A stretch of 64,000 nucleotides of DNA from Clytia hemisphaerica (lineage: Eukaryota > Cnidaria > Hydrozoa > Leptothecata > Clytiidae). A model generated the notes under the pieces. The model had not been told where the DNA came from. It did not search any database and was given only the letters and a program-made list of their open reading frames with translations. Within the stretch, counting starts at the first letter, position 1, and each line of letters begins with the position of its first letter. The stretch covers positions 1,461,152-1,525,151 of the forward strand of contig CACVBU010000385.1 in NCBI GenBank assembly GCA_902728285.1. The letters are read 5' to 3'. The translations under genes were made by a program, and so were the position numbers. Below, piece by piece: positions 745-52,690 of this stretch.

Positions 745-1140
745 GTGATTGTCATGATTATTTAATATTGTGGCTCTGTGATATGGTTGATATTTGTTCT
801 ACATCTTATGTTTGTTCCATTTTTGTTATATTTCATCTAGAAAGAAGTGTTAAAGAAATGTTATTCCAAGTTATTTACATATTCTTGAAATTTCATTTTC
901 ATAATCTGGGTGTACCCCAAAACCCACACCGTGATAGGCCCATTTTGATGACAAAATTGTGAGATTCACAAAGAATTCTTTGCAAGAAAACTTTAACAAT
1001 TGAAAAGATATATCTAGATGGTTGATTTTTATCCTAGGTTTGCAAACTTAGTCTCCTGATTTATGAATCCAGTGACCCTAGTGTTAAAATTTTGAAATAT
1101 TTAGACTATTTTTATGAACAGGGCTGTAGTTCGTTGTTAC

Positions 1141-1240
1141 TAAAAGTGGTAACACAGGGTAACACATGGTAACAGGGGGTAACACTAGGGTAACAGGGGG
1201 TAACACATGGGTAACACATGGGTAACAGGGTAACAGTTTG
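1141..1240 (+). repeat. G-rich GGTAACA subterminal repeat, left arm
   Basis: About ten near-tandem copies of GGTAACA(C/G) with spacers such as CATGG or CTAGG. The reverse complement of the same block is at 6629-6730. It forms the outer part of each foldback arm. Confidence 0.8.
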
Positions 1241-1384
1241 AAAATGGTGGCTCTGAGGGGTCGGAAATTTGAAAATTGACTTAACCAATGTTGTTGCTGA
1301 ATACAATGATAGAATGAATGATGCTGGTCAATGCAATGATGGAATTGATGTTGATTGGTGTGCATGATGGGTGTACTGGTTGAA

Positions 1385-3640
1385 TGCATGGGAATCAATG
1401 GGACTGATGAAATGATGGAATCGATGTTACTGGTGAATGCAATGATGGTGTTACTGGTGAATGCAATGATGGAATCAATGGTGCTGGTGAATGTAATGCT
1501 GGAATCAATGGTGCTGGTGAATTCAATGTTGGAATCAATGGTGCAGGTGACTGAAATGATGGAATCGATGTTGCTGGTGAATGCAATGATGGTGTTACTG
1601 GTGAATGCAATGATGGAATCAATGGTGCTGGTGAATGTAATGCTGGAATCAATGGTGCTGGTGAATTCAATGTTGGAATCAATGGTGCAGGTGACTGAAA
1701 TGATGGAATCGATGTTGCTGGTGAATGCAATGATGGTGTTACTGTAGAATGCAATGATGGAATCAATGGTGCTGGTGAATGTAATGCTGGAATCAATGGT
1801 GCTGGTGAATTCAATGTTGGAATCAATGGTGCAGGTGACTGAAATGATGGAATCGAGATTGCTGGTGAATGCAATGATGGTGTTACTGGTGAAATGCAAT
1901 GATGGAATCAATGGTGCTGGTGAATGTAATGCTGGAATCAATGGTGCTGGTGAATTCAATGTTGGAATCAATGGTGCAGGTGACTGAAATGATGGAATCG
2001 ATGTTGCTGGTGAATGCAATGATGGTGTTACTGGTGAATGCAATGATGGAATCAATGGTGCTGGTGAATGTAATGCTGGAATCAATGGTGCTGGTGAATT
2101 CAATGTTGGAATCTGGTGCAGGTGAAATGATGGAATCGATGTTGCTGGTGAATGCAATGATGGTGTTACTGGTGAATGCAATGATGGATGGTGCTGGTGA
2201 ATGCAATGGTTGAATCAATGGTGCAGGTGACTGAATGATGGGATGTACTGGTGACTGCAATGATGATTTATGGTGAATGCATGATGGAATCAATGGTTCT
2301 GGTGAAGGTAATGCTGGAATCAATGGTGCTGGTGAATTCAATGTTGGAATCAATGGTGCAGGTGACTGAAATGATGGAATCGATGTTGCTGGTGAATGCA
2401 ATGATGGTGTTACTGGTGAATGCAATGATGATGTTACTGGTGAATGCAATGATGGAATCAATGGTTCTGGTGAAGGTAATGCTGGAATCAATGGTGCTGG
2501 TGAATTCAATGTTGGAATCAATGGTGCAGGTGACTGAAATGATGGAATCGATGTGCTGGTGATGGATGGTGACTGGTGAATGATGATGAATGATGATCAA
2601 TGGTGAAGGTAATGCGGAATCAAGGTGCTGGTGAATCAATGTTGATCAATGGTGCAGGTGATGAAATTTGGAATGGTGTTTACTGGTGATGCAATGATGT
2701 GTTACTTGAAATGATGGGAATTGGTGTTTGAATGTAATGCTGGAATCAATGGTTGCTGGTGAATTTCAATGTTGAATCAATGGTGCAGGTGACTGAATGA
2801 TGGAATCGATGTTGCTGGGTGAATGCAATGATGGTGTTACTGGTGAATGCAATGATGGAAATCAATGGTGCTAGTGAATGCATGGTGGAATCAATGGTGC
2901 AGGTGACTGAAATGATGGAATCGATGTTACTGGTGAATGCAATGATGGTGTTACTGGTGAATGCAATGATGGAATCAATGGTGCTGGTGAATGCAATGGT
3001 GGAATCAATGGTGCAGGTGACTGAAATGATGGAATCGATGTTCATGGTGAATGCAATGATGATGTACTGGTGAATGCAATGATGGAATCATGGTGCTAGT
3101 GAATGTAATGCTGGAATCAATGTGCTGGTGAATGTTGGAATCAATGTGCAGGTGACTGAAATGATGGATCTATGTTGCGATGATGGTATTATGGTGAATG
3201 CAATGATGGAATCAATGGTGCTGGTGAATGTAATGCTGGAATCAATGGTGCAGGTGACTGAAATGATGGAATCGATGTTGCTGGTGAATGCAATGATGGT
3301 GTTACTGGTGAATGCAATGATGGAATCAATGGTGCTGGTGAATGCAATGGTGGAATCAATGGTGCAGGTGACTGAAATGATGGAATCGATGTTGCTGGTG
3401 AATGCAATGATGGTGTTACTGGTGAATGCAATGATGGAATCAATGGTGCTGGTGAATGCAATGGTGGAATCAATGGTGCAGGTGACTGAAATGATGGAAT
3501 CGATGTTGCTGGTGAATGCAATGATGGTGTTACTGGTGAATGCAATGATGGAATCAATGGTGCTGGTGAATGTAATGCTGGAATCAATGGTGCTGGTGAA
3601 TGCAATGGTAGAATAAATGGTGCTAGTTAATACAATGGCC
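1385..3640 (+). repeat. Minisatellite arm (144-bp higher-order unit), left
   Basis: The basic unit is about 30 bp (ATCAATGGTGCTGGTGAATG followed by ten more bases) with a 24-bp variant centred on GTTACTGGTGAATGC. Four 30-mers and one 24-mer make a 144-bp higher-order unit: AATGATGGTGTTACTGG recurs at 1441, 1585 and 1729. Later units carry small deletions, insertions and dropped subunits, most dense at 2560-2760. Because 144 is divisible by 3, several frames stay open on both strands for long stretches. The resulting met/val-rich and ser/pro-rich ORFs are by-products of the repeat. Confidence 0.9.
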
Positions 3641-3650
3641 CTGAGGACTG

Positions 3651-5150
3651 AGGGGTAAAAATATAAAAGCCACGTGTTTTAAAGCTATTGAAAGTTAAAT
3701 AGGGTTTCACTTTCTATCCGTTTATATCATCAATATCAAACTAATAAAATAAGTCATTTTGTCAATATAAGGAAAATAGAATAATGAGAACATTGTACCT
3801 CTAAAACTGGCCTTCCCAGTGTTCGCGGGGTGTTTGCTTAATGACAATTTTAATCTAGTTTTACTAAAGGCATCTCATTCGGTACAATAAGAATATTTGG
3901 CTTAATAAAGCTTAAAGATACCACACTTATATACAAAAGTATATCAATATTTTTTGTAAAAAAGCGTCTCTTTGTCAAATTACATCAGGACTTGATTTGG
4001 ATGTTCTCTACGGTTGAGAGAGCAAATAAACTTTTGTGTCTTTTTTTCCTTTTTTTTGTATTTTGTTGATAGATCTTTCTCGTAGAAGAAGAAACACGTG
4101 GATTTCCTTTCATAACTGAAAGTTATGTAATGTTTTTTTTCGCATACAAAAAAATGAGCAAAAAACGTGATTTGAATGGTTACCCAACTTTAGTCTCGTA
4201 AAGTAAATAGTCTTTTATTTTAAATAATAGAGTTGGCGTGTAAGTGAAATATTTCTCTTTTATTTTTTGTGTCTATATATTACACCCTTGTTAAGAGGAA
4301 GCTGCGAGAGAATGTTTTACTTATACATCACTTTGAGTATGAGAAAACAAACAATGAATAATATCAAGAATTTACTTACAACGGAGAAGAGAGTGAATTA
4401 TCCCGCCTCAGTTAAGTTTCTTGCAATTTCATTGGCTAAAAGACGTCACGTGGAGACCGAATATATCTTGTATCCCCCTCCTCCTCCCATGCTCGTTTAA
4501 AAAAAGAAGAATACATTGCATTGCACGCAATGTATCGAACGAATGCGCTTTGAAAGTGATTCGAACGTTTTTGTTTTTATTTTTTTTGTTTGGAAAAGTC
4601 AAGATTTGTTGAATTTGTTGGAGTTTGAGATGCTAGTTGGCTCAGTTGGAACCTCTTTTAACAAACTTAGTTTGACCTTAACTTTTCTGTAGTGGGTATG
4701 TATTGTGGATTCTTAAATGTTTCTTAATGTTGGTGTTTCACTTTGATGTTATTTTGTAGTCTATGGCTTGTTTTCTCTTTGGTAGGTAGGATTGGGCTAT
4801 TCCAGAAAAAATTGTACAGTATGGGGTATGCGGAGGAGGTTTTTTTTGAAAGCTCGAACCCTCTGGATTTTTGACTAATTTCTGTATACCTCCTGGATTC
4901 TTTTTACCGCAGACCTCCCTAGACGTGATTTTTCGGCTCGTGAGTCCCCTGGATGATTTCGCCTCCTCGACCACAAAAATGCTCTTGATCAATCATCAAT
5001 AACCCCCTAGATTTTATCATCTCCACAGTAGACTCCCCCTGGATTTTTAAAGTACAGACCCCCTTGGATGTCAAACTTCCTCAACATAGGGTGTACGATT
5101 TATTTCTTGAATAGCCCATTTGAAATTTAAGCTGTGTTTTGGATTTAAGC
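3651..5150. other. Unique core of the foldback element, no gene seen
   Basis: AT-rich sequence between the two minisatellite arms. Only short open frames (up to about 84 codons) occur, with no recognisable domain. No transposase motif was found. Confidence 0.6.
4850..5075 (+). repeat. Degenerate CCCCTGGATTTT tandem repeat
   Basis: Seven imperfect copies of a motif around CCCCTGGATTTTT at roughly 30-bp spacing, inside the foldback core. They are too diverged to define an exact period by eye. Confidence 0.5.
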
Positions 5151-5164
5151 TATACTTAGGAACT

Positions 5165-6540
5165 TCGACGGATTGCATTCACCAGCAACATCGATTCCAT
5201 CATTTCAGTCACCTGCACCATTGATTCCAACATTGAATTCACCAGCACCATTGATTCCAGCATTACATTCACCAGCACCATTGATTCCATCATTGCATTC
5301 ACCAGTAACATCATCATTGCATTCACCAGTAACATCGATTCCATCATTTCAGTCACCTGCACCATTGATTCCAACACCTGCACCATTGATTTCACCATTG
5401 ATTCCAGCATTACATTCACCTGCACCATTGATTTCACCATTGCATTCACCTGCACCATTGATTCCAACATTGAATTCACCAGCACCATTGATTCCAGCAT
5501 TACATTCCAACCATCATCATTACATTCACCAGTAACATCGATTCCATCATTTCAGTCACCTGCACCATTGATTCCAACATTGAATCCACGAGCACCATTG
5601 ATTCCAGCATTACATTCACCTGCACCATTGATTCCACCATTGCATTCACCAGCACCATTGATTCCATCATTGCATTCACCAGTAACACCATCATTGCATT
5701 CACCAGCAACATCGATTCCATCTTTCAGTCACCTGCACCATTGATTGAATTCACCAGCACCATTGATTTTACCATTCACCAGCACCATTGATTCCATCAT
5801 TGCATTCACCATTCCATCATTGCATTCCATCTATTCCATCATTTCAGTCACTGCACCATTGATTCCAACATTGAATTCCCAGCACCATGATTCCAGTATT
5901 ACATTCACCAGCACATTGATTCCATCATTGCATTCACCAGTAACACCATCATTGCATTCACCAGCAACATCGATTCCATCATTTCAGTCACCTGCACCAT
6001 TGATTCCAACATTGAATTCACCAGCACCATTGATTCCAGCATTACATTCACCAGCACCATTGATTCCATCATTGCATTCACCAGTAACACCATCATTGCA
6101 TTCACCAGCAACCATCGATTTCATTTCAGTCACTGCACCATTGATTCCAACATTGAATTCACCAGCACCATTGATTCCAGCATTACATTCACCAGCACCA
6201 TTGATTCCATCATTGCATTCACAAGTAACATCATCATTGCATTCACCAGTAACATCGATTCCATCATTTCAGTCACCTGCACCATTGATTCCACCATTGC
6301 ATTCACCAGCACCATTGATTCCATCATTGCATTCACCAGTAACACCATCATTGCATTCACCAGCAACATCGATTCCATCATTACAGTCACCTGCACCATT
6401 AATTCCAACATTGAATTCACCAGCACCATTGATTCCAGCATTACATTCTTCAGCACTATTGATTCCATCATTGCATTCACCAGTAACACCATCATTGCAT
6501 TCACCAGCAACATCGATTCCATCATTGCATTGACCAGCAT
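5165..6540 (-). repeat. Minisatellite arm (144-bp higher-order unit), right
   Basis: The same 30/24-bp array as the left arm, in reverse orientation (CACCAGCACCATTGATTCCA on the plus strand). It has fewer higher-order units and its own pattern of deletions, so the arms have changed length independently since they were formed. Confidence 0.9.
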
Positions 6541-6746
6541 CATTCATTCTATAATTGTATTCACCAACAACATTGGTTAAGTCAATTTTCAAATTTCCGA
6601 CCCCTCAGAGCCACCATTTTCAAACTGTTACCCTGTTACCCTAGTGTTACCCCTGTTACCCATGTGTTACCCCCTGTTACCCTAGTGTTACCCCCTGTTA
6701 CCATGTGTTACCCTGTGTTACCACTTTTAGTAACAACGCTGTAGTT

Positions 6747-7420
6747 TCCTAAAATAAAAATATTTCTGAATAAATTGTTATCAAACACAACCCTATGATA
6801 TCAGGGGCTCTCCAAAATAGGAATGTTTTTTATCCTAATGCTCTAAAACCTCTGATTTTCTTTATTTAAGTGGCTGTGCTGCTTTTGGGGTACCATGGTT
6901 TTTGGGGTCCATATACCTGTATCTTCAGTCCTAAAATCTGTGGATCTAATTTTGAATTATTTTTAGCAACACCTATCCAAATCTAGAACTCAAAGCTTGT
7001 AATCATTTGGAGTCTCTCTACTCACTAAGCCTTATATACCTTTTAAGATGTTTTTATATTTATTTTTAGTAAATAAAATCTTGTTTTCCTTTATATGCAA
7101 TTTTTAATTTTAAGTTTATTTTTAAGACAGATACATATACTTTTTAACACTATTTATGTACATTATATTTATATTCTTTTCTAGATAATATTTGTGAGAA
7201 TAGATTTTGTAATTAACCTCCTGTAAATTATCGAATAGAAATATAAAGGAGTGGTCATGGCTTCTTCACAAAGACGAAAGACAGATCTGGACTTGTTGCA
7301 AACTTTCCAGTCTCTTGTTCGTAGTTTTTCTGATTTTCTAGGACTTTGTGAGCTATTTTCTATTTTTTCCAGAACTGATTGAACGATTTAAAAGATCACC
7401 ACCGGTGGGATTCGAACTTA
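6747..7420. other. Intergenic, no gene seen
   Basis: AT-rich, with no convincing open frame. A 28-bp sequence at 7251-7278 (GGCTTCTTCA and AAAGACGAAAGACAG) recurs inverted at 11883-11910. Confidence 0.4.
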
Positions 7421-7423
7421 CTA

Positions 7424-7498
7424 TCAGGAACCCAACGGGTTTGAACCGAGGACCTTGTGCATGTGAAGCATACATGATAACCACTACACTACAAAACT
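7424..7498 (-). pseudogene. tRNA-Val(CAC)-like pseudogene or tRNA-derived SINE head
   Basis: On the minus strand there is an A box (GTGTAGTGGTTA), a seven-base loop TTCACAT that would give anticodon CAC, an AAGGTC variable region and a B box (GGTTCAAACCC). The anticodon stem mostly pairs, but the T and acceptor stems do not close, so a working tRNA is unlikely. A second B-box-like GTTCGAATCCCACC follows at 7404-7417, which suggests a composite or SINE-like remnant. It sits about 100 bp upstream of the truncated LINE. Confidence 0.5.
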
Positions 7499-7599: not shown

Positions 7600-9485
7600 A
7601 AAATAAAGGATGATCTACATCATAGATAGACGAGAAAGAAGAAGACTAGAAGAACGAATTTGTGGTCAAGCAAAAAGAAGCCCTAAGAAGTTTTGGAAGC
7701 ATATCCGGAACTCAATGAAGACCAAAACGGGAATCTCCCCTCTTCTCCTTGATCCAAATGATAAATCATCACTTCGTTTTACTGATGAGGATAAAGCTGA
7801 CATCCTACAGGATCAGTTTTGCAGTGTTTTTACGAATGAACCTGCTGGATCACTACCTGAGTTTCCATCACGAACAGACACAGATGTAGCATTCGATCTA
7901 ACAATCGACATGATCAAAAAGGAACTAAAAGGTTTGAATCCTAATAAATCGCTAGGACCTGATGAGATTCACCCAGTCATGCTGAAAAAGCTGGCCTTTT
8001 ACATAGCTGGTCCTTTACATACTATCATGGCCAAGTCCTTCGTAGAAAGTAAACTACCTGATGATTGGAAGACTGCACATGTGTCCCCGATCTACAAGAA
8101 AGGAAAAAAGAACCTTGCAGAAAATTACAGGCCCGTTAGTTTAACATCAGTTGCGTGTAGAGTAATGGAAAGAATCCTAAAGAAACAAATAATGGAACAC
8201 CTCACGAATGAGAAATTGCTATCAACCAAACAACATGGGTTCATGGGTAAGCGATCGACAGTGACACAACTACTTCACTACTTAGACAAATGTGCGGACT
8301 CGATATCCAATGATAAGGTTGTTGACGTAATCTATTTCGACTTCGCAAAGGCATTTGACACCGTTCCACATCGCAGATTACTAAGAAAACTCGAAGCGTA
8401 TGGTATCAGAGGAAGGGTACTTGGTTGGATGAAAGCATTTTTGTCCGATCGTTACCAATATGTGAAGGTCAATGGAAAGTTATCTAAGAAATGCCAGGTG
8501 CAAAGTGGTGTACCACAAGGAAGTGTCTTAGGTCCACTCCTTTTCGTTATTTACATCAATGATCTAGCTGAAGTTACCAAATCAGAAATGTTTCTCTTTG
8601 CCGATGACACAAAGCTTGTTGAAGAAATCAATAACGCTGAAGATGCAATTAGACTTCAGCACGATATCGAGGCAATGGAAAAGTGGTCTGTTGACTGGTT
8701 GTTGAAATTCCATCCTGACAAGTGCCACGTGTTGACACTAGGGAAATTCTGGAACATTCAACATGCACATCCTTACGAGATCGCTGGCTCTGTCCTAGAA
8801 CATGTTGATCAAGAGAAGGATCTTGGAGTGATTATTGATAGTGAATTGAATTTCGAAGAACACATCTACACCAAGATCAAGAAGGCTAACTCGATCGTTG
8901 GATTGATTAGCAGAAGCTTCGACTTCCTTTCTCCCGAGATGCTCCGCACACTTTTCATTGCATTTGTGAGACCTCACCTTGAGTACGCGCAAGCTGTTTG
9001 GTCTCCACGGCTGATCAAACACTCTGATGCAATTGAAAGTGTCCAACGTAGGGCCACAAGACTGGTCGGCGGTTATAGAAACCATTCATATGAAGAACGT
9101 TTACAAGTCATGAACCTACCCAGCCTCAAGATCCGGCGTAAAATCGGGGACATGGTGGAAGTATATAAACATCTTAATGTCTATGATAAATCTTCCCTAT
9201 GTCAAAAACTCGTTCTTCGAAATCGACCTCAACGTAAGCACAATCTCGAATTAAAGAGGAATTTCGCTGAAGACGGCATTAGAGGATACCAAACGAATTC
9301 ACTTTACTATAGGAGCATTGATACTTGGAACAGTTTGGCAACCAATGTTGTAAATGCAACGTCCGTAGGGAAATTCAAACTAGAATTGACAAACGAATGG
9401 AATGATAAGATCTATAAATTGTAAAGATGTAAGATTGTTTCATAGAGGTCAATAGACCTGAGAAATACACTTCTATAAATAAATA
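7600..9485 (+). mobile_element. 5'-truncated non-LTR retrotransposon (LINE, Jockey/CR1-type)
   Basis: The body contains an intact reverse-transcriptase ORF, a short 3' UTR of about 60 bp and an AT-rich ATAAATAAATAAAA tail ending near 9488, typical of target-primed retrotransposition. The upstream endonuclease domain is missing, consistent with 5' truncation on insertion. The undamaged ORF suggests a recent copy. Confidence 0.85.
7610..9424 (+). CDS. LINE reverse transcriptase (ORF2 fragment)
   Basis: A 604-codon frame without interruption. Residues about 1-130 are the linker between endonuclease and RT (KFWKHIRNS, then a GPDEIHP block). RT motif A is YFDFAKAFDTVPH near residue 242. Motif B is SGVPQGSVLGPLLF near 298. 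The catalytic FADD of motif C is near 329. A C-terminal thumb-like region carries IESVQRRATRLV. Family knowledge: this arrangement is typical of Jockey-superfamily LINEs (CR1/L2/Rex-like). The exact clade needs a tree. The first ATG is internal to the original ORF because the 5' end was lost. It is a transposon gene, not a host gene. Confidence 0.9.
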   Translation: MIYIIDRRERRRLEERICGQAKRSPKKFWKHIRNSMKTKTGISPLLLDPNDKSSLRFTDEDKADILQDQFCSVFTNEPAGSLPEFPSRTDTDVAFDLTIDMIKKELKGLNPNKSLGPDEIHPVMLKKLAFYIAGPLHTIMAKSFVESKLPDDWKTAHVSPIYKKGKKNLAENYRPVSLTSVACRVMERILKKQIMEHLTNEKLLSTKQHGFMGKRSTVTQLLHYLDKCADSISNDKVVDVIYFDFAKAFDTVPHRRLLRKLEAYGIRGRVLGWMKAFLSDRYQYVKVNGKLSKKCQVQSGVPQGSVLGPLLFVIYINDLAEVTKSEMFLFADDTKLVEEINNAEDAIRLQHDIEAMEKWSVDWLLKFHPDKCHVLTLGKFWNIQHAHPYEIAGSVLEHVDQEKDLGVIIDSELNFEEHIYTKIKKANSIVGLISRSFDFLSPEMLRTLFIAFVRPHLEYAQAVWSPRLIKHSDAIESVQRRATRLVGGYRNHSYEERLQVMNLPSLKIRRKIGDMVEVYKHLNVYDKSSLCQKLVLRNRPQRKHNLELKRNFAEDGIRGYQTNSLYYRSIDTWNSLATNVVNATSVGKFKLELTNEWNDKIYKL

Positions 9486-23135: not shown

Positions 23136-26100
23136 ATGCCTGGAATCAAAAGAAAATCAACACCTGGCAAGGATAACCAGCAAACAATATCCAGATTTTT
23201 CAAACCCAAATCTACTGATGCCAACAACAATGGTGGTGGTCAAAATCATGAGAAAACACCAAAAAGACAAAAGAAAGTGGTAAGAGATTATATATTGTTT
23301 GTCTCAAGAGCATTAACACCCTTGTCAGGGTTTATTTTTATCAACAAGAACTTTCACTTTCGTACAAAAAACTGTTTGATTGCCAAAACCCCATAACAAG
23401 GTATTATATTCTAAAACTGGGCCATTTAGAGCAAATCAACTTTTGATAGCCGAAAATATTTCCAAAATAAATGCGAGTCAGTCTGGGGTTTTTATAAGAC
23501 ATGAAAAGCATTTACTTTCTCACCTCAAAATTAATTTAAAAAAAGACTTTGGTTTGGCAAAAATAGGAAATGTAATGTAAGATATAGAAACACTATTCCC
23601 TCTACAATATTCATCTAACTATAAGTATTACTACTTTCGTTTGAAATGAAAGTTTTTTTACAGATTGCCTGAATATCCTTACTACCAATTTTCAATTCTT
23701 CATTTTAGCCTGTTATACAGATTCTTGATGATGACATAGCGCCTAGTCAATCACCGGCAAAACCTTCCTCACTTCAGAAACAAAATAAACTTCCACACGA
23801 TGAAATAAAAAAAGAAAATGATGGAAATGTAAACCAATCTTTAACGCAACCAACAACTCATAAAATCACAGTAAGTGAAAAATGCCTCCAAAAATTGGCT
23901 CGGTATTCCATTGATAATACACTATCAACAAATGGATCAATGACACCTTATTTCACCAAAACCACATCGGAAGAATCGATTGAGACACCATCTTCAATGG
24001 AGCAATCAAACATTAGCAAATCTCAACTCAACAACTCAAATCTCCAAAAATTTGCTCATTCACCTTCAATCGTTCACAAAGAAATGGCTCAAACCTCTAC
24101 CCAGTCAAATTTTGACGAGACAGTACACAGAAAAATATTCGATCAAAACAACAATTTCTCAAAACTTGGCACTACAGAACCACCACCACCACCATCCTCA
24201 AATACCAAGAAAAAAGGAAAGATTGTTTACACTCCACTAGAAAAACAAGTTTTGGAATTACGTAAACAATCCCATGGTGCAATGCTATTCGTGGAATGTG
24301 GATATAAATATCGATTCTTTGGCCAAGATGCAGAGGTATGTGAAGAGTAAGAGAAAAGATTCGATTTAAGGGTTCATAATTTTGGCGTGTTGAATTTCGT
24401 GGCCTGAGGGACAAAGCAGTGGCGTTGTGGGAAGAATTTTCTGGGGTGGCCAAGCAAAAATGTAGTGCTCTTTGAAAAATATTTTGTTTTTGCGTCCCCT
24501 TCTAACCCTTTCAATAGACCTTTTCATAAATTACGTCACGAACATCACTTGCCTCGTTTTGAAATTATTGCCATGGTAATTAACTCCCAGCGGATTTTAT
24601 TTAAACTACTTTCTTTTCTTAAAAAAATCATTTCATGTCTCAATGGACATAATCACCTTAGTGATTGTTTGAAAACGAGGCAAGTGATGTTCGTGACGTA
24701 ATTTATGAAAAGGTCTATTGAATAGCGAGCGAAGCAATCAGAAAGAAATCAATGTATTAGTCCCGCTGCTGAGGTCGATAAATGTTTCATTTCGTGACGC
24801 ACCTCTTAGAACTAACTTTTTTTGGTGGAAACTCGCGAATTAGCATATGTAGATTCCAAAATCAAAAACTGATGGAAAACAGGGAATTTCCCCACAATCT
24901 GCATTAATTTATGCAAAATTAAACACCTTTTTGGCCACAAATAGGCCCATAACTTTTGATCTAGAGAAGTTGGGACTTTGGTGTAATACACTTTTTTGCT
25001 CAGTTTGAAGAGCTCTATCATGTGATATAGGTCTTTTTTTAATTTGAAGACCCCCCAAAAATCATGAATTTCCAGGCCTTGCAATTTTGCCTGGAAACGC
25101 AAAAATCGCCAATTACTCGTAACTTGCACGATAATATCGTGGAAACTTTTTCATTTTGGAATCTACATATACTAATTCGTGAGTTTCCACCAAAAAAAGT
25201 TAGTTCTAAGATGTGTGTCACGAAAATTGTTTTCTAGCCACTTTTTTCGATCTCAGCAGCGGGACTATATTCCGAATACAATGCGAGATACATGTGAAAG
25301 GGCGCCATTTTCGTAATAAATGAGGGTGGTGTTTCAATGAGCACTGCGTAAGTTTGAATACGAAATTATTACGATTTTCCATTTTGGCAGCCCTTCAAAA
25401 AAAGTAATATCAATGTATTTGTTTATCCTTGCTTGTAGTGGAAGTCCGAATTCGTTCTAAAAAGCCAAAGGTCTAATTACTGGTATTCCGTAGACAGATT
25501 ATAGCTTCAAACAACTTTATTTTCAGCGCTGGAACACTATTTTGCATCTTCAAGAATTTAGTTTAATTAATTTAACAGGTTGCATCCAAAGAACTGAACA
25601 TTTGTTGTCACATGGACCATAATTTCATGACTGCAAGTATTCCTGTACATAGGCTGAATGTTCATTTGAGCAGGTAAGAAACCTCGCTTGCTAGCCATCA
25701 TCAATAATGTTTAATCTTCAGCTCTGGTACGACAAAGAGAAATGTAACCTATTTAACCTTTATCATATCCACCAACCATTCTACATCCTCTTTTACCAAT
25801 GGAAAAAAGTTCATGTTTTTCTTTTCTCCTTTATTCATCTGTACTTCTGCACATCGCACTGAAAGAGAATGGACTTTAAAAACATAAAGGTGCGAAATTC
25901 TATCCATTGACACACTTGCTTAATAATTTACTGCACTGTCTTTTACCTTTTATAGATTAGTAGAAAAGGGATACAAAGTGGGCGTGGTCAATCAAACAGA
26001 GACCGCCGCCCTTAAAGCAACGGGCGATAACAAGAATGCCCCGTTTACACGACAAATCACAAACATCTACACCAAAGCAACTTTCATCGATCGAGAAGGT

Positions 26101-29100
26101 ATTTATTTTTAAAATTAAGTACATTTTAGAATTTCGTGACGTTTTTCCAATCCATACAATCTGATACCATCTTGTTTGATACTAGGTTGATTACGACTTA
26201 AAATCTTTGAGCTTCTAATTTTGACTCCAATTTACAAGCCCCAGCAAAAGTGATGACATCACATGGGGACCAGGCAAATGGTCAAAAGTTTTCACATGCT
26301 TTTGTGATCTAATGGGCCTAATTGATCGTTTTTTGTCGGGTTTGGGTCCCACGTCGGGATTTTATAAGATTTTCGCTTCCAAGTAAGATACTATTGCATA
26401 TAGCCCCCCCCCCTCATTATACTCGTCTCAGAACTTATTATCACAGTGAGATTGAGGTCATGTTCAGACTCGTTCCGAAACGAAACGGTTCCGAAATGAG
26501 TGTGAACGTCGAAATTCGAAACGTCATAAAAGAAGACGTTACAAAGCAAAAAGGATCGAAATGGTTCTGCTCCACTTTTTTCATCAGAACGAAACTGCTC
26601 CATTTTCTTTCTCCAAAACGTTCCGAAACCAATATAGACACTCTCGATCCATAACGGAAACAATACCGGAGCAACACGAAACCGTAACGTCTGAACATGG
26701 TCTGAGATGTCAACATGAAATTCCCATTTATAATCATCATCTTTTCATCATAGAAATGAATCACGATGGCGGAAAAGCAAATCCTTCTTATATCCTCGCC
26801 ATTAACCAATCAAAGAAAAGCTGCTTCAATTTCATCGCAGTCAACCCTACTACAAGTGAAGTTGTATGCGAGCAATTCTCAACCAAATCTATAAGTGATT
26901 TGTCAGTGGCTTTGGAAACTATATTCAGCTGTTTGAAACCATGTGAGTTAGTGTTGCCAAAGTCTTCGTTGGACGAATCTGTTGAGACCTTTATTGCCAG
27001 ATATGTCAGTAACAGTATCGAAGGTGTACGGACTGAACGATTGATTGAAAGTCCATTCACGAATGTCACCAAAGAAAGTTTAAAGAGACTAGATCCTGAA
27101 TTTAATACTCAATCATTATTATCGTGTGCTTGCCAACTCGAATCGTATTTATCTCAATTCAAGTTGGACGGCATACTGAAATCGAGTGAAAATTTTCGGA
27201 AATTTAGAACCATAAATCAAAGCATGGTATTGGATGGAATAACATTACGTAATCTTGAGATCTTCGAGAATAACACGGACGGAGGAGTGCGTGGTTCATT
27301 GTTCTCCGTGCTTAATCATACATACACTCCTTTCGGGAGGCGTTTGTTAAGAAGATGGATAGCCAATCCTTTATTGTCTAAAGACGAAATCCAAGATCGG
27401 TTAATCGGGATAACAGAAATGGTTGAAAACTGGGAATCGGATTACATGAAAAGCTTACGACGTGGTTTAGCTGGTTCAATTGATCTTGAAAACGGGTTAA
27501 CTATTATCTCACTAAAGAAAGCCAGTCCTTCGAAATTTATCAAAATTGTGAGTGAGCTTGAGAAACTTCGAACTTTGTTTTTCAAATACAGTGAGGAAAT
27601 CTCTTCGAAAACTAAATCGAAACTTCTTCGCGAACTATCTACTCAAATTCCGCAACATCTTGGAACTAGGTTGGATGCCTCGTTGAATAAACTAAACAGA
27701 ACAGAGGCTGATAGAAACAACAAAAACAACGTTTTCAAACAGCCTGAACTCGATTATCCTGAGGTGCTCAAAGCCAAAAACGAGATCAAATCCATCGAGT
27801 CAAAACTAGAAGAATATAGACGTTCTCGATTGCCCAGAGCATTAAACAAACTCTCTGTTGAATATAAATGCGTCTCCGGTTTGGAATATCTTGTTGAAGT
27901 CAAGAACAATGAAGTTAAGTCGATCTCTTCTGATTGGATTAAAATCAGTGCAACCAAACAAGTCACTCGGTTCAGACCACCTTTCGTAGACGAACATTTC
28001 AAGAAACTCTGTCGAGCTCGTGAAGAATTATCGATAAGCTCAAATGAAGCCTGGATTTCATTCCTAGACTCATTTTCATACTTGCATTACGAGGCGTGTA
28101 AACGCGCTATTGAGAAAGTTGCCATCTTTGATTGTTTAATATCATTATCAATCGTTGCTAAGCAACCTGGTTATTGTTGTCCAATCATCGATGATTCTGA
28201 TTGCATTGAAATTCAAGATGGTAGACATCCGGTGATTGAGGGGTTACTTGCTTCCGGTCAACAATATGTGGCAAACGATACAAAGCTCAACAATGAGAAG
28301 AAGGTAAGTGGTTTGAAAATTATGTCTCGAAAAAAATTAAACATAACTTACATAAAGAAACATCTCATAATTTATGCCAATTTCTATTACCAAGTTTTTC
28401 CTCCATTAGGCGCCGCCCTCTAATAAGCGCCACATCTAAAATCACGAAAATTGATTAAGCGCCGTCTAAAAAATCTCCTTGACCCAAAATTGTATACAAC
28501 CTTTTGATCTAGGGGTTCTTTGTTTGAATACCTATTTCTTAGTTAAGTTCGTTTCCTTGGATCCTGTGAAAACAATGAAAAGACATAGATGTCCTAGATT
28601 ACAGGGCTAGCCACTTAAAAAGTCGTTGTGCACGTTTTCTTCTTTTTAGGCAATGTTAATATCAGGTCCAAATATGGGTGGTAAAAGCTCGTACATCAAA
28701 CAGATTGCTATCTATTGCATCTTGGCGCAAATTGGTTCATACATTGCTGCTTCTTCTGCCAGGTTCGTAGCATTTTTGGCCACTCCCAGATATTAAAAGA
28801 ACCTACACTAGCTTTAGTAGAGGACTTCTAATTAAGGCCTCGCCAAATTAAATGATTGCTACCTTGCCAAAATATAGTTCTTTGGTAATTTCCAGAATAA
28901 CCACTAATTTTCGTTTAAAACACTCATCTTCAGGGCAATAAAGAACAAAATCACTCTTTCATTCAAAATGAGTTTCAACAAAGTGGCTTAACATTAACGT
29001 CAAACTCGAAACTTATTAGAATCAGTTTCTTTATTTCAGTCAATAATAGACCTTTTCATAAATAACGTCACTAACATTACTTGCCTCGTATTCAAACAAT

Positions 29101-31872: not shown

Positions 31873-31934
31873 GTATACATATATATTTGTCCAGAAAGAA
31901 CTGGCATGTTGTTTGCTTTGTTTTGGTGTTTACA

Positions 31935-32115
31935 GCGAAGTTTCCAGCGATTGAAAAAAGCTGGAAAAGCAGATTCTCGTGCATTTTCGCACGCTAATTA
32001 CTTTTGCATGCGCATCATTACGTCATAATGGGAGCATGCGCTGTGAAAACGTTTTAAATAAGGCGTTTGAATTACAAACATCCTCGCTGCATTCACTCAT
32101 CAAACTAAGCGTACT
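31935..32115 (+). repeat. Split direct repeat A1
   Basis: About 181 bp starting GCGAAGTTTCCAGCGATTG and ending AAGCGTACT, nearly identical to A2 (35939-36117). It contains GCATGCGC palindromes and TTTTAAATAAGGCGTTTGAA, and leads into the first ORF, so it likely holds the element promoter. Confidence 0.9.
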
Positions 32116-32154
32116 GTGTATGTGTGTGTGAGAAAGAAATTATTTTTAAAAAAA

Positions 32155-33750
32155 ATGTCTAAAAAATCAAGTGAAAAATCAAAATCTACTGATGGTGGAA
32201 CTACTTCTGGAAATGAAACACTAACTGTTACTTACGAGCAGTTGAGAACTCTGGTTAACGATGTTGTTGAAAAAGACTTTGGCCCACAAATCATGAAAAG
32301 CACCAAAGACACAGTGAAAGCTGCTTCTGTGCAATCTGCTGAGAATCATTCGACCAATCTGGCTAAGCTCAAAAAGAAACTCGAAAGGAAGAGAGCCAAC
32401 GACAACATCGTACTCAAGAAAACCGGCCATCAAGATCAATTTGCTCATAATACAGCAGTCTTGGAAACGATTGAGGATACCCTCGAATTCATGGAAGAGA
32501 CGGATGTTGATGGGATGAAAGAAGCTTTAAATAAAGACCGATTTTGGGAATTCGAACAATCTGCTGAAAGTATCTCCGTCGCCGGAAAGATTCAAAAATT
32601 TTCAGAATTTTGGGAAAAAGACTTGAAAGCATCCAACTTCGCCTTGAATATCGTACACGAAGGATACAAAATACCTTTCGAGTCAGAACCACCAAAATTT
32701 TTCGCAAAAAACAACGCTTCCAGTCTAAAAAATCGAACTTTCGTTACGGATAGTATCACACAACTTTTAAAGGACGATTGCATCAAAAAAGTCGACGAAC
32801 CGCCTCATTGTGTTAATCCTTTGACTGTTGCAGAAGGAAACTCAAAACTAAGACTCGTCTGGACCTTAGACACGTCAACAGATATATCAAGCCAAAAAGT
32901 TCAAGTACGAAAACTTAAAACAGGTTTCAGAACTCACGAACAAAAACGATTTTTTAATTACTTTCGATCTTAAGAGTGGGTATCATCACGTTCCAATCAT
33001 CCAGATTTTCAAACTTTTTTGGGATTCGCCTGGGACATCGACGGCAAAAGACAGTATTTCGTATTCAAAGTCTTACCATTTGGGCTCAATATAGCATGCC
33101 TAGTGTGTTACAAAGCTTATGCGACAGCTTGTTTAAAGATGGCGCTCGATGGGAATCAAATGTGCAATGTATCTCGATGATGGTAATGGGAATAATTCTT
33201 ATAATTCCCTGATACAATGAGAGATCTAGTGCTAAACGACCTACAATCTGCAGGGCTGACCCGTTAACTTTACAAAGTCGAGTCTAGTACCGGGCGTACA
33301 AAACTTGGTTGGGTTTTGAAATAAATACAGTCGATATGAACTTTGAAGTGCCAGCCATCAAAAATTCAAAAACTTTTGAAATAATTTCACAAGCATTAGA
33401 AAACGAATTTCTATCAGCAAGAGAAGTTTCCAGAAATCGCAGGCAACCTTATTTCCATGGCAATCGCAATAGGCCCGCTTGTCTATTTGCTTACAAAACA
33501 AATGTACAAATTCATAGCTTCAAGTTTCTCTTGGGATAAATGGCGATTAATAAATTTTGACGTTATTCAAGAACTTCAATTTTGGCAAACCAATTTAAAA
33601 AACGTAAAAGCTTTTAGAATTAAAACCAAACCAGAAATTACGAAGATCATCTTTTCGGATGCAAGTGGTACCGGCTATGGAGGTTACGTGGTAGAAAAGT
33701 TAGGAAACATCATAGCAAAAGAAAAATTTTTGTTAACAAGAAATACAAAC
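32155..33750 (+). pseudogene. DIRS/Ngaro reverse transcriptase-RNase H, frameshifted
   Basis: An ATG at 32155 opens a frame to 32973. It carries a coiled-coil-like lysine-rich N-terminus and the start of the RT domain (PPHCVNPLTVAE then LRLVWTLD). Frames then shift near 32880 and again near 32900, after which FDLKSGYHHVP (RT motif A region) is readable near 32963. The catalytic YLDDG is near 33170. RNase H begins at IIFSDASGTGYGGYV (about 33648). These blocks are typical of DIRS-order polymerases rather than LTR or LINE types. Multiple frameshifts make it non-functional. Confidence 0.85.
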
Positions 33751-33954
33751 TAGCTCAACTTTTCGTGAACTTCTTGCAGTTAAATATATTTTGATGTCCT
33801 TTCCTAAAACTTCTCGAAAACGAAATAATTGAGTGGGTTCACGGACAACGATAATATTTGTAAAATAATCAGCGCGGGTCGGTAGAACAAGACAACACCT
33901 ACAAAATCTTGCAATAGAAATTTTCAACCTCTGCTTATCCCATAACGTCGAAAT

Positions 33955-34396
33955 TTACCCTACTTGGATACCAAGGGACATGAATAAAACAGCAGATTTA
34001 ATTTCCAAATCTATGGACACAGATAATTGGTCTATCGATAATGAGACTTTTAATCACATAATCAAAAACTATGGACAAATTACTATAGATCGATTTTCCG
34101 ATAACCAAAACGCTAAGTCAACTGTTTTTAATTCTCGTGAGTATTGTCCAGGAACATCCGCCGTCAACGCTTTTTCCTGTAATTGGGGAAACAATGAGTT
34201 CAACTGGCTTTGTCCTCCAATATCCCTCGTGGGTAAGACAATTCAGCATCTGAAAAATTGTAGAGGTAAAGGCATATTACTTGTTCCATTGTGGCCTTCT
34301 TCTTACTACTGGCCATTGCTGACATCGAACGGCAAAGAATTCGAAGTTTTTGTGAAAAGTTTTAGTACTCGACCCTTATTATATTCAATTATCTAA
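33955..34396 (+). pseudogene. RNase H end and connection domain of the Ngaro-like element
   Basis: TWIPRDMNKTADLISKS closes the RNase H domain. It is followed by VNAFSCNWG, NWLCPPISLVGKTIQHL and LLVPLWPSSYYWPLL, a block found in DIRS/Ngaro polyproteins between RNase H and recombinase. The frame ends at a TAA at 34394-34396. Confidence 0.8.
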
Positions 34397-34557
34397 ACAA
34401 ATGTATTTGACGGATTGCAGGCTTCTATTCTGTAGCATTATATATCGATATGTCCCAATAAATATTCAGTATTATTAAATTCCTAGTTATATCTCACTAT
34501 TACCCCATCTAACACACTCATTTTTCATTCTTTTTATGTTGACAAACTTGGTTACAT

Positions 34558-35785
34558 TTGCAAGATTTATTACATCACGATCAACGTTACACGTGGTGTG
34601 TTTTATGTGCCAATGCCTCTGTGCAAACACGTCTTTCGCGTCAATGTCTCTGTACAAACGTATTTGAGGAGTTCGTTCTCCATCTTGAAGCCCATCGTCT
34701 TACAGATGGCAAAGTGCAAAGGTACGAAATTAACTTTTTTTATTTATTTCATTTTTCGACAGATCATGCCCCCCCAAGTTTGAAAGAAAAACTCGCAACA
34801 ATTAGGAACGAAAGTTTGAAACAAAAAGCCGAAGGTCTTCCCGTTTTATTAGAATCAGTTACGCCCAATCCACTTTGAGGAAGTAACAAACTGCTTGGGA
34901 AAAATGGGTGTCTTGGGCTGGTCCATTCGACGAGGTAAACTGTTGTCCTGCCGACCCTTTTTACGTAGCGGTATATCTAAACGATCTTACGAATTCACTT
35001 GCAACCGAAGGAACATTGACCGCAGCTATTCTAGGATCAGATGGGGGCACTTACCTCAGGATTTGAATCTCCGACCGATCATTCCCTTGTTAAATTAGCA
35101 CTAGAAGGAGGTAAGAGAATAATAGCTGAGAAAAATTCTATTGGAGGGAAAAGACGCAGAAAGAGAACCCTTATCATCAGATATTATCAAAAGTCTAGCG
35201 GAAACATACGCCACATCAAGTAATCTTTTGGATATTCGTTTTACCCTAATGGTTATATTAGGATTTGCAGGTTTTTTCAGAATCAGCGAAATGCTAAGGA
35301 TTCAGACCAAAGATTTAACTTTCGATCAAAAGGGCGCAACGCCGCAATTTTTTCTCCCCATATCGAAAAACCGATCAACAACGCCAAGGTAATCTCGTTT
35401 TATCAGTAGAACAAAATCCAAATCCTGCCCAATCCACTGGCTCCGTAAATATTTATCACTTTCCGGGCTGAGATACAAATCAGAAGCTTACTTATTTTGT
35501 CGCCTTTACAAAACGAAATCTGGTCATAATGCACATGGTCATCTCCCCATATCGTACTCCACAGCCTTATCATCGTTCAAAACCAACCTCTCAAAAAATT
35601 ACGGATCGGCAAAATACGGTTTACATTCCCTCCGATCAGGGGGTGCTACAGAAGCCGCAAATAACGGAGTTTCTGATAGGCTTATCTCCAAACATGGTCG
35701 ATGGTCCTCAAACACAAGTCGAAATATTTATATTAAAGACAAAACTGAAATCCGATTCAAAATTTCTCAATCATTGGGAATTTAG
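34558..35785 (+). pseudogene. Tyrosine recombinase of the Ngaro-like element, frameshifted
   Basis: Remnants appear in several frames. The catalytic-domain start is readable as LGFAGFFRISEML (about 35258), with the first catalytic arginine in FFRISE. The box II segment, HSLRSGGATEAANNGVSDRL followed by ISKHGRW, starts at 35624 in another frame. The expected tyrosine lies in NIYIKD, and the frame stops at 35785. R-H-R-H-Y residues are all present but in different frames. Tyrosine recombinase instead of a DDE integrase is the defining trait of DIRS-order elements. Confidence 0.85.
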
Positions 35786-35854
35786 CTTTAAAAATTTTTA
35801 TTTTTTTTTTGCTACTATCATGTTCAACTCATAATTTTTTCTTTTTTATCTCTC

Positions 35855-35938
35855 GTGTTATTGCAGACAAATACCAAACAAAAAGGAGCTATTCTTGTGA
35901 TTATTGTTTGTTTATCGAAAAGGAGAAATAGCCGAGAA
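35855..35938 (+). repeat. Split direct repeat B1
   Basis: 84 bp starting GTGTTATTGCAGACAAATAC and ending AAATAGCCGAGAA. It joins A2 directly and is repeated with a few changes at 36718-36803. Confidence 0.88.
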
Positions 35939-36117
35939 GCGAAGTTTCCAGCGATTGAAAAAAGCGGAAAAGCAGATTCTCGTGCATTTTCGCACGCTAA
36001 TTACTTTTGCATGCGCATCATTACGTCATAATGGGAGCATGCGCTGTGAAAACGTTTTAAATAAGGCGTTTGAATTACAACATCCGCGCTGCATTCACTC
36101 ATCAAACTAAGCGTACT
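35939..36117 (+). repeat. Split direct repeat A2
   Basis: Second copy of A1, with only a handful of differences. It directly abuts B1, forming the B1A2 junction expected for the circle-joining region of these elements. Confidence 0.9.
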
Positions 36118-36146
36118 TAAACATAATAAAAAATTATTTTCCTTTC

Positions 36147-36392
36147 ATGATCCTTTCCACATTCCACCACGTACATTCGAACCTAGTGCCACCACCGGAC
36201 GAAAAGCCAGCAACTCAAATTGGTCAATCAATGGCTCAGACGATCAACCACCAAGGAATACGAAACGCCGGTCATTGGAGATTGACGATCTTATCAACAT
36301 TCACCACCGAAAACTTATCCAACATGGAATCGTGGATGTGTTTATCAATTGACGAATTTGGTATTCCTAAACAAAAAATTAAAATAGATTGA
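36147..36392 (+). CDS. Short ORF between A2 and B2 of the Ngaro-like element
   Basis: An 81-codon open frame of mixed composition (GQSMAQTINHQGIRNAGHW) downstream of A2. It may be the remnant of an extra ORF, such as those some Ngaro elements carry, or the displaced end of the recombinase frame. I do not recognise a domain. Confidence 0.3.
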   Translation: MILSTFHHVHSNLVPPPDEKPATQIGQSMAQTINHQGIRNAGHWRLTILSTFTTENLSNMESWMCLSIDEFGIPKQKIKID

Positions 36393-36717
36393 TAACATTT
36401 TGAAGCTATGAAGCTCATACCTCGTAAAAATCCATTATTATAATTTAAATTTATGATCTCTTACATTTGACGGTCAAACACTTGCAGATGGAATAATTTC
36501 TTTAGTAAAAAATTTGTACATAAAGGGGGAAGACCTTTAACCTCCGAAGGTCGGGGCGACGGATGCCATTGGTTCGGAGATAATGTTTCCTCCAGAATAA
36601 ACAGCCACTGGGGGTTTTACGCTACACGCTTCGTCACAAAAACTCCGTTGTATTTTATTTGAGTTTATCCAACTTGTAATTTTACTACTGATTTGTTAAC
36701 AATTTTTTTTACCGCGA

Positions 36718-36803
36718 GTGTTATTGCAGACAAATACCAAACAAAAAGTAGCTATTATTGTGATTTATTGTTTGTTTATTCGAAAAGGAGAAATAGCCGA
36801 GAA
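36718..36803 (+). repeat. Split direct repeat B2 and right end of the element
   Basis: Direct repeat of B1 (GTGTTATTGCAGACAAATAC through AAATAGCCGAGAA). It marks the right boundary. No target-site duplication is seen, as expected for recombinase-type integration. Confidence 0.85.
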
Positions 36804-51879: not shown

Positions 51880-52690
51880 AGCAACTTTAAATACGAATGA
51901 AAGATAGTCGAACGTGCGCAACGCACTGGGCTCAACTTCAGTGGCTTCAAATGATTCATAGGCCCAATTGTAGACCCCCAGATATTTACCCAATGAACAA
52001 GTGTGCCAAATTTCAACCAAATCCGACCATTTTGGAGGGCTGTAGGCTGCTTCAAAGCTTTAGCCTCGTCTTGGCAAAAAACTCGTCCCTAGGCCCCAAA
52101 AATCTAAATTTTTGAAAAATGCAAAAAGCACCCCCAGATATTCACCCAAGGAACAAGTGTGCAAAATTTCAGCCAGATCGAACAATTTTTGAAGTCTCCA
52201 GGCTGCCCCAAAATTTTAGCCTCGTTTTGGCGAAAAACTCGTCCCCAGGCCCCAAAAATCAAAATTTTTGAAAAATGAAAAAAACACCCCCAGATACTCA
52301 CCCAAGGAACAAGTGTGCAAAATTTCAGCTAGATCGAACAATTTTTGAAGTCTCCAGGCTGCCCCAAAATTTTAGCCTCGTTTTGGCGAAAAACTCGTCC
52401 CCAGGCCCCAAAAATCAAAAATTTTGAAAAATGAAAAAAGCACCCCCAGATATTCACCCAAGGAACAAGTGTGCAAAATTTCAGCCAAATCGAACAATTT
52501 TTGAAGTCTCCAGGCTGCCCCAAAGTTTTAGCCTCGTTTTGGCGAAAACTCGTCCCCAGGCCCCAAAAATCAAAAATTTTGAAAAATGAAAAAAACACCC
52601 CCAGATATTCACCCAAGGAACAAGTGTGCCAAATTTCAGCCAAATCGAACAATTTTTGAAGTCTCCAGGCTGCCCCAAAGTTTTGGGACA
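51880..52690 (-). repeat. 156-bp tandem repeat, about five units
   Basis: The CACCCCCAGATATTCACCCA boundary recurs at about 51973, 52129, 52285, 52441 and 52596, a period of 155-156 bp. The first unit is the most diverged and the last two are nearly identical. It begins about 200 bp upstream of the first PUF60 coding exon found. Frames on both strands stay open across units because 156 is divisible by 3, so the ORFs seen there are not genes. Confidence 0.88.

Follow-up and report, generated by a model that had tools for sequence, protein, structure and literature searches.

The hydrozoan Clytia hemisphaerica carries a real, multicopy family of foldback transposons, very probably of the Mutator type, with unusually long satellite arms. 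One copy lies in the stretch of DNA analyzed here, a 64,000-bp window of contig CACVBU010000385.1 (positions 1,461,152 to 1,525,151 of the forward strand). Its sequence suggests that this copy is non-autonomous, has undergone internal deletion, and very probably belongs to a foldback family in the Mutator superfamily (Mutator-like elements, MULEs). Structurally the element is a foldback: its long inverted ends consist largely of tandem repeats, and target duplications flank several copies of the family.

The window element is 5,607 bp long (1132-6738) and lies between two copies of CTGTAGTT, the left (1124-1131) and right (6739-6746) target-site duplications, both on the plus strand. A scan of both strands found no other occurrence of CTGTAGTT in the window. 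An identical 18-bp end forms the left tip (1132-1149, plus strand) and, as its exact inverted copy, the right tip (6721-6738, minus strand); in a shuffle control, at least two matches with three or fewer mismatches arose in 1 of 100 shuffles. The tip reads TGTTAC...GTAACA, an imperfect palindrome that extends to about 1154. Over the outer ∼165 bp, the two ends differ by no substitutions, and small gaps occur in the subterminal repeats only. These repeats form a left block (1149-1235, plus strand) with 9 GTAACA motifs and a right block (6626-6721, minus strand) with 10, at a spacing of mostly 10 to 11 bp. Next come the remainders of the flanking domains (left, 1236-1320, plus strand; right, 6551-6625, minus strand), the left one containing TGAAAATGGTGGCTCTGAGG, which is nearly conserved in a second subfamily described below. 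The left array (1321-3637, plus strand) is built of monomers A to E in 144-bp and 114-bp higher-order units and is degenerate at both edges. The right array (5172-6550, minus strand) has the same monomers inverted and an abrupt inner edge, which we take to mark a deletion breakpoint. Between the arms is a spacer of about 1.5 kb that is free of array sequence. It contains the inner sequence alpha (3638-4790, plus strand), shared in part with many copies and with two transposase-bearing sequences, C936 and C170, and a nested stretch of short inverted repeats (4793-5118, strand not assigned) that we label MITE-like (miniature inverted-repeat transposable element) and that occupies the same place in C936. 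The inverted ends, subterminal blocks, opposed arrays, and 8-bp duplication were all located where the initial annotation of the window had placed them. No special hairpin was indicated in the subterminal strand (z, -0.97), and the element end had 0 matches in viral contigs.

Copies and subfamilies in the Clytia genome

Comparison of the element end with the genome (417,433,876 bp in 951 contigs) gave 40 scored places from 157 candidates, at 89 to 100% identity. With up to two mismatches allowed, the 23-bp tip matched 386 times (203 + 183), compared with 0 matches for the reversed control. Among the 100 tip places listed, 90 were exact, and 70 of these 90 make 35 convergent pairs by hand count. 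We fetched 28 loci of the window's subfamily (subfamily 1), 24 of them two-ended and 4 otherwise. Opposed arrays are present in all 25 two-ended copies (the window element and these 24), which range in length from 838 to 5,607 bp. The shortest, L027, is the weakest case, with a right array that reaches just 49 bp past the flanking domain. Exact duplications of 8 or 9 bp flank 19 of 26 copies from both subfamilies together, namely, the window element, 22 two-ended subfamily 1 copies with both flanks, and three subfamily 2 copies; among the 22, the exact duplication is 8 bp long in 6 and 9 bp long in 9. Many of the spacers overlap one another as deletion derivatives of longer elements, one of which, on contig C936, is described below. 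The initial annotation had proposed searching the genome for the end with the 144-bp unit and for other insertions with 8-bp duplications. Rather than a single copy with no end-defined insertions elsewhere, the search revealed many end-defined copies with 8- or 9-bp duplications.

Subfamily 2 is defined by a variant of the tip that ends in AACG, with 56 + 60 exact genome matches (control, 0). The copies fetched, L041 (6,471 bp), L042 (5,618 bp), and L046 (5,354 bp), have target duplications of 9, 9, and 8 bp, respectively. Their subterminal repeats are of the GTAACG type, and each copy has two kinds of array, one of 30 bp and an extra, inner one of 124 bp, all of these parts being inverted. 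Good alignment between the flanking domains of the two subfamilies is largely confined to the 22-bp tip and one short box; both subfamilies have GTAAC repeats, and the C-terminal pieces of their transposases are 45% identical. The traits of the family are therefore exact 22- to 23-bp tips, 8- to 9-bp duplications, GTAAC-type subterminal repeats, and satellite arms based on a 30-bp monomer.

Several fetched loci were set aside or are observations in their own right. Three one-ended loci were rejected as large autonomous copies: L026 holds a reverse-transcriptase open reading frame (ORF), L028 meets a contig edge, and L029 has ORFs that look Helitron-like by eye (1191-7469), beside a truncated arm. 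The left end of L019 is truncated, and a 10.6-kb tip pair, L045, was of no use, having a run of N beside the tip. In L020, a 1.1-kb insertion within the right arm contains an ORF (3081-3761) with a weak PHD-finger match, below the cut-off. L009 and L016 have a common right flank (96%) and different left flanks, explained either by elements having recombined ectopically or by a switch in the assembly. Positions 106-392 of alpha have a multicopy relative outside the foldback family, at about 75 to 79% identity, in L040 (1588-1950) and about 20 other places.

Repeat architecture and origin of the arms

Tandem Repeats Finder (TRF) assigned a period of 144 to both window arrays, whose boundaries given above are approximate. 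The 144-bp unit comprises five monomers, A-B-C-D-E (30+24+30+30+30 bp), and is interspersed with 114-bp A-B-C-E units. Of 136 parsed monomers, 61 are identical to the consensus (39 of 86 in the left array and 22 of 50 in the right). When the arms are aligned in inverted orientation, the best alignment has 83.8% identity over 1,651 columns. The hairpin of more than 1.5 kb foreseen in the initial annotation is fair as a pairing length, and the arms would pair in this way only if single-stranded. The exact 144-mer of the window recurs in 10 of the 24 other copies; therefore, the unit is a property of the family and is not peculiar to the window insertion. Array lengths vary across copies from under 0.3 to over 2 kb. 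Within the window, too, one arm is shorter than the other, and the right array ends abruptly, mid-monomer, at 5172. Against the monomer consensus, with edge monomers excluded, 99 bases are deleted, 14 inserted, and 87 substituted in the window arrays. Four patches, picked post hoc and spanning 876 of 3,630 aligned bases, contain 87 of the 99 deleted bases, a distribution that we would sooner ascribe to consensus error in the assembly than to a biological cause.

Some interpretations of the arrays were discarded. A protein-coding role was rejected: the array ORF had no homologue at an E value of ≤0.001, and the reading frames look like by-products of the 30-bp period. Derivation of the array or the spacer edge from the flanking domain was also rejected, the best local scores between flanking domain and spacer being 19 and 20, no better than shuffles (means, 20.5 and 20.3). 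The presence of GTAACA in many 144-bp units was dropped as proof of binding sites because one site per unit would be a ∼6% event by chance, by rough arithmetic from a background of 25 in 58,393 bp, and because the monomer consensus of subfamily 2 lacks GTAACA.

Between subfamily 1 (636 monomers) and subfamily 2 (118 monomers), the consensus sequences of the 30-bp monomer disagree at a single position of 30, with 7 positions forced by the use of TGGAATC as the anchor for monomer extraction; an anchor-free TRF consensus from L041 shows the same single difference. Because the monomer is nearly identical between subfamilies while its higher-order arrangement turns over freely, we tentatively propose that it may be a conserved working part of the element, perhaps a transposase-binding unit, rather than passive satellite. 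Judged from these sequences, this conservation would be the one strong sign of arm function. Exchange of arms between the subfamilies would explain the likeness too. If the monomer is a working part, the arms would be an array kept by selection as a landing site, and nature would in effect have varied repeat number in Mutator transposition as an experiment.

The initial annotation had instead suggested that a satellite-like array became the arm of a mobile element that could seed satellites elsewhere. The satellite-like array with its higher-order unit is in keeping with capture of a free genomic satellite by a transposon and its spread as satellite by the elements, and Tetris, a Drosophila foldback, is reported to have given rise to satellite arrays (PMC4079207). 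We nevertheless regard this history as quite unlikely for the Clytia family. Of 385 array-signature matches, the 100 listed, which come first in contig order, all have a family tip within about 2.5 kb, so no free satellite array, and no sign of satellite seeding elsewhere, was found among them, although the assembly may lack long satellites. Moreover, one monomer already serves as the arm in both subfamilies, and the array is therefore an old part of the element rather than a free satellite turned arm.

Transposase, superfamily, and history of the window copy

Two part-copies connect the family to a transposase. C936 contains inner sequence, transposase exons, the right array, and the right end as far as the contig edge. 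C170 contains an array, inner sequence, and an N-terminal transposase part, with the tip 0.9 kb outside the fetched stretch. The full-length copy with a transposase between the arms that had been anticipated was thus found in part: the transposase is there, but neither sequence is full-length. In C936, a tandem-repeated stretch lies between the transposase C terminus and beta, the right inner sequence. A probable intron of its Mutator-type transposase gene contains mariner-type transposase ORFs (L043 2344-3232) and has GT...AG edges.

Homologues of the transposase come from corals, a sea anemone, and metagenome sources. Further lineages (C193, C250, C624, and C915) have transposase identities of 47 to 59%. 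In the family alignment (A1), among sequences with letters at the respective positions, the first D is conserved in 18 of 18, the second D in 18 of 18, E in 14 of 14, W in 15 of 15, and C and H in 15 of 15; the C936 pieces also carry the D, D, CxxH, and E motifs. The 8- or 9-bp duplications fall within the MULE range of 8 to 11 bp. From the DDE, CxxH, and W motifs and an IS256-like fold in a homologue model, the transposase family probably belongs to the Mutator superfamily, in which case the window copy would be a non-autonomous Mutator-type foldback. Weak matches to the Pfam MULE family (PF10551) were found in 3 of 18 homologues (best E value, 0.0041) and in none of the C936 pieces, which also lacked NCBIfam matches. 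The best viral fold match was a bracovirus protein (E value, 7.5e-10). To judge from a study title, the Mutator-related element Phantom reportedly occurs in insect viruses, and the bracovirus match simply fits this. A Protein Data Bank (PDB) sequence search with the transposase profile returned mostly antibody light chains with weak E values, which we read as chance.

Several observations weigh against this account of the window element. An exact duplication is missing in 7 of the 26 copies: two (L017 and L025) are off by one base, as read by eye, and L009, L018, L023, L030, and L031, among the 22 copies with both flanks, have no target duplication. For the window subfamily, no contig was found to carry tip, arm, transposase, arm, and tip together; C936 begins within alpha and stops 7 bp before the tip, and its transposase gene is in three pieces, with the mariner-type insertion between the first and second. 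The C936 pieces had no match in Pfam, Foldseek against PDB returned nothing at an E value of ≤0.001, and the IS256-like fold is that of a model of homologue P0109, not of the C936 protein. CxxH and W are also described in hAT (PMC5225508). Finally, arms within a copy are barely more similar than arms between copies: of 2,000 permutations, 196 (k = 20), 156 (k = 30), 45 (k = 40), and 22 (k = 60) reached the observed similarity, so special arm-to-arm conversion is little supported.

Membership in another superfamily with duplications of about 8 bp (hAT, P/Galileo-like, or Merlin) instead of Mutator would accommodate the shared motifs, and hAT and P folds are compatible with the structure-match list. 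Hermes ranks lower in that list, and we consider such an assignment very unlikely. Misassembly of one satellite array into two opposed arms might be suspected from the patchy deletions, the half-shared flanks of L009 and L016, and the start and end of C936 within the element, but it is hardly credible given the recurrence of the convergent design in every two-ended copy, the exact duplications in 19 copies, the unequal arms, and the differing spacers.

We favor a Mutator-type foldback that has lost part of its interior. The window copy retains alpha and the MITE-like stretch, both present in C936, and is without the transposase and beta. One deletion may have removed everything from within the spacer to within the right array, which would explain both the mid-monomer start at 5172 and the shorter right arm. 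Transposase supplied from elsewhere would have bound the tip and subterminal repeats, excised the element, and inserted it at CTGTAGTT, where staggered joining would have made the 8-bp duplication. Unequal exchange or slippage could alter array length, which would account for arms of differing length in one copy and from copy to copy. The long arms probably serve the transposase as additional landing sites or as spacers.

Other features of the window stand apart from the element. A 605-amino-acid reverse-transcriptase ORF (RVT_1; 7607-9424), non-LTR-like in appearance, lies 0.9 kb to its right. Parts of MSH3 (23709-24350 and 26456-28423) include MutS domains I, II, and III, with IV below the cut-off; the second stretch matches Clytia hemisphaerica Msh3-like at 95% identity across 84% of the query, in keeping with that hydrozoan as the host. 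Positions 31934-36803 contain two ORFs, one matching Dam at slightly less than the cut-off and the other matching phage integrase, and direct repeats (31934-32115 and 35938-36117) are 98% identical; these pieces resemble a DIRS-type retroelement. A tandem array with a 156-bp unit (4.6 copies, 93% matches) occupies 51974-52684. No RNA families or tRNAs were found in the window.

Comparable elements and significance

Our literature searches, confined to open-access papers, listed no report of a cnidarian foldback with satellite arms. The TU elements of sea urchins are foldbacks with arms of 15-bp repeats and 8-bp duplications, a likeness that we draw by description only. The Clytia family appears most like Muta1 of mosquitoes and Tetris of Drosophila. 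Muta1 of Aedes aegypti, a MULE called a type 2 foldback element, has 8- or 9-bp duplications, a terminal motif that is an imperfect palindrome, 9 short tandem repeats in the subterminal part of each end, a transposase with DDE, CxxH, and W, and many non-autonomous derivatives (PMC5225508). Its ends are 145 bp long, and its transposition has been demonstrated (PMC5225508). In Clytia, the subterminal block is followed by satellite arms that can exceed 2 kb, and our evidence comes from genome sequence. Tetris of Drosophila virilis is likewise a non-autonomous foldback with 8- to 10-bp duplications, flanking and tandem-repeat domains, and a variable middle, and its authors, who also mention sea-urchin foldbacks, placed it in Mutator from duplication size (PMC4079207). 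It differs in its 220-bp AT-rich repeats, its three structurally complete copies, a transposase that was not found, and arrays that have grown into satellite (PMC4079207). By description, the Clytia family has instead a 30/144-bp unit, transposase exons, and no free array among the matches listed.

Long arms with direct repeats also occur in Galileo, a Drosophila element of the P superfamily with a P-type THAP transposase (PMC3688188, PMC4168063). One D. willistoni copy has arms of 4.2 to 4.7 kb with ∼140-bp repeats, and in D. buzzatii additional transposase-binding sites were shown within such repeats; direct tandem repeats characterize that single D. willistoni copy but every two-ended Clytia copy examined (PMC3688188, PMC4168063). 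Tm1 of root-knot nematodes (Mutator/foldback) shares variable-number repeat arms (repeats of 13 to 15 bp), nested insertions, 8- to 10-bp duplications, and a putative transposase in some copies, and it differs in its repeat unit and asymmetric end motifs (PMC3169594). Rehavkus and Phantom, likened by description only, have Mutator-related transposases and minisatellites reported near their ends; Rehavkus is marked by a PHD finger in the transposase and a minisatellite before the 3′ end (PMC6446971). Pfam gave no PHD-finger match in the C936 pieces.

Some foldbacks, Tetris among them, have been described without the enzyme that moves them (PMC4079207). In Clytia, one genome contains both a foldback family whose satellite arms reach kilobase length and the Mutator-like transposase family to which it is tied, one whose C936 pieces Pfam does not see. 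With hundreds of ends, one element type, a wide range of array lengths, and two subfamilies that share nearly one 30-bp monomer, the foldback family offers a test bed for why foldback arms exist.
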